A DNA stretch of 64,000 nt from Hydrogenothermaceae bacterium (GTDB lineage: Bacteria; Aquificota; Aquificia; Aquificales; Hydrogenothermaceae): contig JAOABC010000003.1 in the NCBI GenBank assembly GCA_026418535.1, positions 62,001-126,000 on the forward strand, written 5' to 3'. The notes beneath the pieces were generated by a model that was not told where the DNA came from, searched no databases, and saw only the letters and a list, made by a program, of their open reading frames with translations. This document shows positions 46,768 to 46,909 of the stretch, piece after piece. How positions within the stretch are numbered: position 1 is the stretch's first letter; each line of letters begins with the position of its first letter. A program made the position numbers and the translations under genes.

Positions 46768-46909
46768 AAGACCGCGGGGGTGGTTACGTTACAAGTAGCC
46801 TGAGATTATACCCCTCGAACCTGACGCAGGTAATGCTGCCGTAGGGAAGCGGGCTTGGGAAGAAACCTCCAAGTCCACTTTCTTTAGGTAGAATACTAAA
46901 CTTGGAGGT
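46768..46909 (+). promoter_or_regulatory. TPP riboswitch of thiC, with translational expression platform
   Basis: The THI-box core is visible: CTGAGATTATACCC (46800-46813), CGAACCTGACGCAGG and GCCGTAGGGA (46838-46847). P1 is AAGACCGC (46768-46775) with GCGGGCTT (46849-46856). Two rival hairpins follow. ACCTCCAAGT (46865-46874) pairs perfectly with ACTTGGAGGT (46900-46909), which holds the ribosome-binding site. GGGCTTGG (46851-46858), part of P1, pairs with CCAAGTCC (46869-46876). With TPP bound, P1 holds the first strand and the ribosome site is hidden; without TPP it is free. No T-run, so control is translational. Confidence 0.95.

Follow-up and report, generated by a model that had tools for sequence, protein, structure and literature searches.

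A candidate TPP riboswitch ahead of thiC in a Hydrogenothermaceae genome, with competing helices over the SD sequence

The thiC leader and its surroundings

We analysed a 64-kb stretch of DNA from a Hydrogenothermaceae genome (hereafter the window), in which the TPP aptamer RF00059 is the sole RNA family scoring above its gathering threshold. The match lies at 46766-46865 on the forward strand (65.2 bits versus a gathering score of 54.3, model positions 1-105 of 105) and is the one TPP match in the whole genome. Directly downstream is a thiamine-related gene, thiC, whose start is 50 bases past the aptamer match. Score and gene context bear out the preliminary description, which had proposed a TPP riboswitch here, and make the leader a clear candidate for one. 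The features of the locus are listed below.

46338-46694, reverse strand: divergent gene upstream, QueD/6-pyruvoyl tetrahydropterin synthase kind (best match 64.4 bits versus a cut-off of 89.25)
46732-46760, forward strand: putative sigma-70-like promoter, TTGAAT-17-TATATT (consensus scan; weak)
46766-46858, forward strand: candidate TPP aptamer (RF00059)
46766-46770/46854-46858, forward strand: outer part of P1, 5 pairs
46771/46853, forward strand: A-G mismatch between the outer and core parts of P1
46772-46775/46849-46852, forward strand: core of P1, 4 pairs
46836-46859, forward strand: anti-sequestor, 5' arm; lies within the aptamer and comprises the 3' strands of P5, P4 and P1 (minimum-energy folds at 37-80 °C)
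46865-46874, forward strand: anti-SD arm of the sequestor, ACCTCCAAGT, 10 perfect pairs (46868-46874 common to the anti-sequestor)
46868-46891, forward strand: 3' arm of the anti-sequestor, pairing through 46868-46876, 46878-46884 and 46887-46891; its homologue in genera g2-g5 is the 5' arm of the terminator (see below)
46900-46909, forward strand: SD arm of the sequestor, ACTTGGAGGT, 10 perfect pairs, with the SD GGAGG at 46904-46908
46916-48283, forward strand: thiC, phosphomethylpyrimidine synthase, the putative controlled gene (NCBIfam NF006763, 732.7 bits, cut-off 650; ORF of 455 aa)

The divergent gene can be assigned at family level only. RNA started from the candidate promoter would begin close to 46766, where P1 starts. 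This is a weak suggestion, as the consensus scan gave one match with 0.7 expected by chance.

Competing helices and predicted switching

The anti-SD arm ACCTCCAAGT is the exact reverse complement of ACTTGGAGGT, giving 10 Watson-Crick pairs over the GGAGG, which sits 7 bases ahead of the ATG at 46916. This perfect stem had been reported in the preliminary description, and we recovered it at the same positions. A perfect stem of at least 10 pairs over GGAGG arose in 9 of 20,000 dinucleotide shuffles of 46840-46899, and a chance origin is rejected as unlikely. We also scanned the SD-like words before ORFs of at least 100 aa on both strands of the window, counting overlapping words apart. Among the 98 words, 95 had no perfect stem of at least 5 pairs, one had 5 pairs and two had 10. 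Both 10-pair cases are the thiC site; elsewhere in the window the perfect stem did not exceed 5 pairs.

The rival helix pairs 46851-46858 (GGGCTTGG) with 46869-46876 (CCAAGTCC) through 8 pairs, one of them G-U (46853-46874). Its coordinates and its G-U pair had been read correctly in the earlier description, where it was taken as an 8-bp helix; it is in fact the core of a longer, interrupted hairpin that dismantles P4 and P5 as well. The helix grows by a further G-U pair absent from that first reading (46859-46868) and is prolonged outward by 46843-46849/46878-46884 (7 pairs), followed by 46836-46840/46887-46891 (5 pairs). The resulting ligand-free hairpin, 46836-46891, has 9+7+5 = 21 pairs with small internal loops between the segments. 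The 3' strands of P5, P4 and P1 are drawn into it, an overlap of 24 nt with the aptamer, as is most of the anti-SD arm. The duplex between its 5' arm and the downstream arm was stronger than in 1000 of 1000 shuffles.

We computed folding ensembles for four choices of transcript ends at five temperatures from 37 to 75 °C with ViennaRNA energies, the values at 65-75 °C being extrapolations. With the aptamer pairs forced, the anti-sequestor had a probability of 0.00 and the sequestor of 0.90-0.98, and the SD was unpaired at 0.00-0.03. In the free ensemble, the anti-sequestor reached 0.73-0.98 and the SD was unpaired at 0.21-0.52. Forcing the four core P1 pairs alone was enough to bring the anti-sequestor to 0.00 and the sequestor to 0.95-0.98 (37, 65 and 70 °C), and coexistence of the anti-sequestor with P1 is rejected on this result. 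A fold favouring the anti-sequestering helix even with P1 formed, which had been named beforehand as the outcome that would count against the proposal, was absent at these three temperatures. Two further proposals of the preliminary description, mutually exclusive use of the 3' strand of P1 and an OFF logic acting through SD sequestration, hold up in these predictions. In silico, the SD stem is exclusive with an antisequestor that P1 breaks, which is the arrangement of a translational OFF switch.

For transcripts of increasing length at 65 °C, P1 was predicted to dominate until the 3' end reached about 46874 and to be displaced by 46878-46890. We infer from these predictions how TPP binding, its timing in the cell and its effect on ThiC output would be connected. 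Without TPP, once the transcript has passed about 46876, the arm 46868-46891 would pair back onto 46836-46859, pulling apart P1, P4 and P5 and using up the anti-SD bases 46868-46874, and the SD at 46904-46908 would be free more often. TPP bound before about 46876 would lock P1 and P4/P5 and leave 46865-46874 available. This arm would then pair with 46900-46909 and block ribosomes from starting thiC. Our analyses thus favour, with high though not full confidence and on modelled folds, an OFF-type TPP riboswitch that would control translation by strand exchange.

One point against this explanation is that the free SD is predicted to be only partly open, being able to pair with the 5' strand of P1 or with other bases of the aptamer. 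In the predicted fold, 46901-46905 can be bound by the 5' P1 strand, whose sequence is similar to the anti-SD. The same partial opening would suit a leader that does not switch, with the aptamer present and the platform fixed in one state at growth temperature. Forcing the aptamer cost 3.7-8.0 kcal/mol relative to the free ensemble, and slow exchange across such a gap could keep the leader always ON. However, TPP aptamers have nanomolar affinity and could pay this cost, P1 prevails until the anti-sequestor arm appears in the transcript, and both competing helices are kept in 8/8 leaders of two genera (g1 and g9; see below). We consider a non-switching leader very improbable.

Control of transcription was the other alternative to the translational strand exchange that we favour. 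No T-run follows the sequestor in the window sequence, and no hairpin with a U-run that would form in the ligand-bound state was found between the aptamer and thiC. The sole terminator-like match is the core of the ligand-free hairpin with an interrupted tail, ACTTTCTTTA. We rejected it as a terminator because its logic would be wrong and its U's are paired within the long hairpin, and with it an intrinsic terminator between the aptamer and thiC. The leader could still act at the level of transcription if Rho terminated synthesis of the message when it is not translated; hiding of the SD would then be what triggers termination, or a second layer of control. Such termination is described for E. 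coli thiC (PMC5234074), and the two mechanisms are not mutually exclusive. With no intrinsic terminator in the leader, we regard transcription-level action as improbable, if somewhat less so than a leader that never switches.

Relatives in the phylum

We searched 136 genomes of the phylum and found a TPP match in 42, with 22 in the family of the window (Hydrogenothermaceae) and 20 in a second family. Under the stricter filters of this search, the other 94 had no TPP match; they include some nearly complete genomes of the same family, such as G079 and G080.

Eight of the 22 family leaders carry an SD sequestor of 10-13 perfect pairs, two in the genus of the window (g1) and six in another (g9), and the arrangement is kept in 8/8. 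In all eight, the SD was more open with the aptamer 3' strand included (0.21-0.86) than with the platform alone (0.00-0.01). Another eight have a hairpin and T-run between the aptamer and thiC (two in g2, two in g3, three in g4 and one in g5); seven of these were called by the scan and one (G075) was read from the sequence. In these leaders, the intrinsic terminator lies well ahead of a free SD. No convincing terminator was found in the remaining six, all from g7. In four of them, the duplex between the aptamer 3' strand and the downstream sequence was matched in strength by 13-42 of 1000 shuffles, and in the other two (G081 and G083) by 437 and 776.

Two side observations concern these leaders. 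In L120 and L122 (g9), the end of the sequestor stem reads CTTGGAGGTTTT or CTTGGAGGTTTTT, and the stem might double as a weak terminator. Nine of the 22 family leaders, namely all three of g4 (L101, L103 and L109) and all six of g7 (L100, L102, L104, L105, L107 and L114), carry a palindrome-like motif, TATGA-N6/7-TTTCATTT (for example TATGAGATATTTCATTT), downstream of the riboswitch and ahead of thiC. This motif also occurs upstream of thiC in L003, where no TPP match exceeds the gathering score. It could be another operator or promoter element acting on thiC.

In the second family, a T-run was present in 4 of 20 leaders, all from genus g26. Among the 16 leaders without one, the longest perfect stem over GGAGG had 5-8 pairs in 14 and fewer than 5 in two, counting perfect pairs only, so that imperfect extensions fall outside these lengths. 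According to the preliminary description, unusually stable stems are needed if a thermophile is to control a gene by hiding its start. These short stems do not support that claim, and the comparison does not show long perfect stems to be needed in general; the stems of 10-13 pairs look more like a trait of the clade than a proven necessity. The 20 TPP leaders of this family (L082-L099, L108 and L113) stand ahead of a gene other than thiC. Its product has an N-terminus like MQNLSEVVISEAII and may resemble a Thi4-type thiazole synthase.

We aligned the 16 family leaders outside g7 (15 distinct rows; the six g7 leaders were left out). They align over a shared arm, which in most rows has the form AAGCC-A-(T/C)-CTT(T/C)C. 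In sequestor-type leaders, the partner of this arm in the free state is the aptamer; in terminator-type leaders, it also forms the 5' arm of the terminator. On this alignment, the 21 anti-sequestor pairs gave 77.7% paired cells versus 73.3% in shuffles, and the inner 16 pairs gave 86.3%; aptamer P4/P5 gave 98.3% on the same rows. The covariation score was 0.186 versus 0.135, with 0 of 500 shuffles as high, and the given register paired better and scored higher than all six slid registers. Double-change pairs numbered 6 versus 4.1 in shuffles (32 of 500 as high), and further pair types showed no excess (14 versus 14.9; 422 of 500). Covariation in the aligned rows thus gives the anti-sequestor modest support. 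The conservation of the sequestor carries little covariation, because it hardly varies among the eight leaders.

Arm duplexes beat shuffles in all eight g1 and g9 leaders (0-1 of 1000 as strong), and also in g4 (0, 2 and 0 of 1000) and g2 (0 and 12). Those of g3 (two leaders) and g5 (one) were not clearly above shuffles (68-159 of 1000). A tree of the first 290 residues of ThiC (26 rows) joins the terminator leaders and g7 in a group of 14 rows (98/93), with the sequestor leaders branching off outside this group; the root of the tree depends on four distant outgroup sequences (87/83).

Output devices and comparison with known systems

The observation on the window is confirmed, and the thiC leader would be an ordinary system, a known type of riboswitch showing standard thiamine feedback in a thermophilic lineage. 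The one point of interest beyond this, and a moderate one, is at the family level. The same thiC riboswitch may have exchanged its output device within one family, with a sequestor in two genera and a terminator in four, while retaining one downstream arm for strand switching. Up to 24 nt of the aptamer would be invaded by this arm in the sequestor type, which is deeper than the published class-wide model of transcriptional switches suggests. We see the case for this reading and the case against it as evenly balanced. If it holds, the leaders form a small natural series in which a move between translational and transcriptional control takes place by replacing the last strand only. Their comparative value is that the same aptamer and switching arm occur with a sequestor or a terminator end, so that a change of output mode can be tested piece by piece.

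TPP riboswitch candidates of the Aquificales, a thermophilic group, were already reported in 2014 (PMC4227106). We found no paper in the open-licence literature on platform exchange in Hydrogenothermaceae. Among the closest known systems are the terminator-type TPP riboswitches of g2-g5, which share the aptamer, thiC and the homologous switching arm with the window; an intrinsic terminator, well ahead of a free SD, is their final element, whereas the window leader ends in an SD sequestor with no T-run. In a covariation model published in 2026 for transcriptional TPP switches, aptamer and platform have only two nucleotides in common (PMC13273304), compared with 24 in the sequestor-type leader of the window.

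The OFF-type translational TPP riboswitch with antisequestor and sequestor is described in general terms by Barrick and Breaker 2007 (PMC2258182). The window leader has the same conserved aptamer, P1 switching helix, RBS sequestor, exclusive antisequestor and downstream thiamine gene. It differs from the general type in an antisequestor that reaches through P4 and P5 over 24 aptamer nucleotides. The E. coli thiC riboswitch precedes the same gene, and in both systems an RBS-sequestering stem competes with an anti-P1 stem. Regulation of E. coli thiC involves Rho, and the anti-P1 stem there bridges a long distance, the regions implicated being C7-G16, in the 5' region, and 146-154 (PMC5234074). 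The anti-sequestor of the window, in contrast, is predicted to be a local hairpin with the 3' strand of P1.
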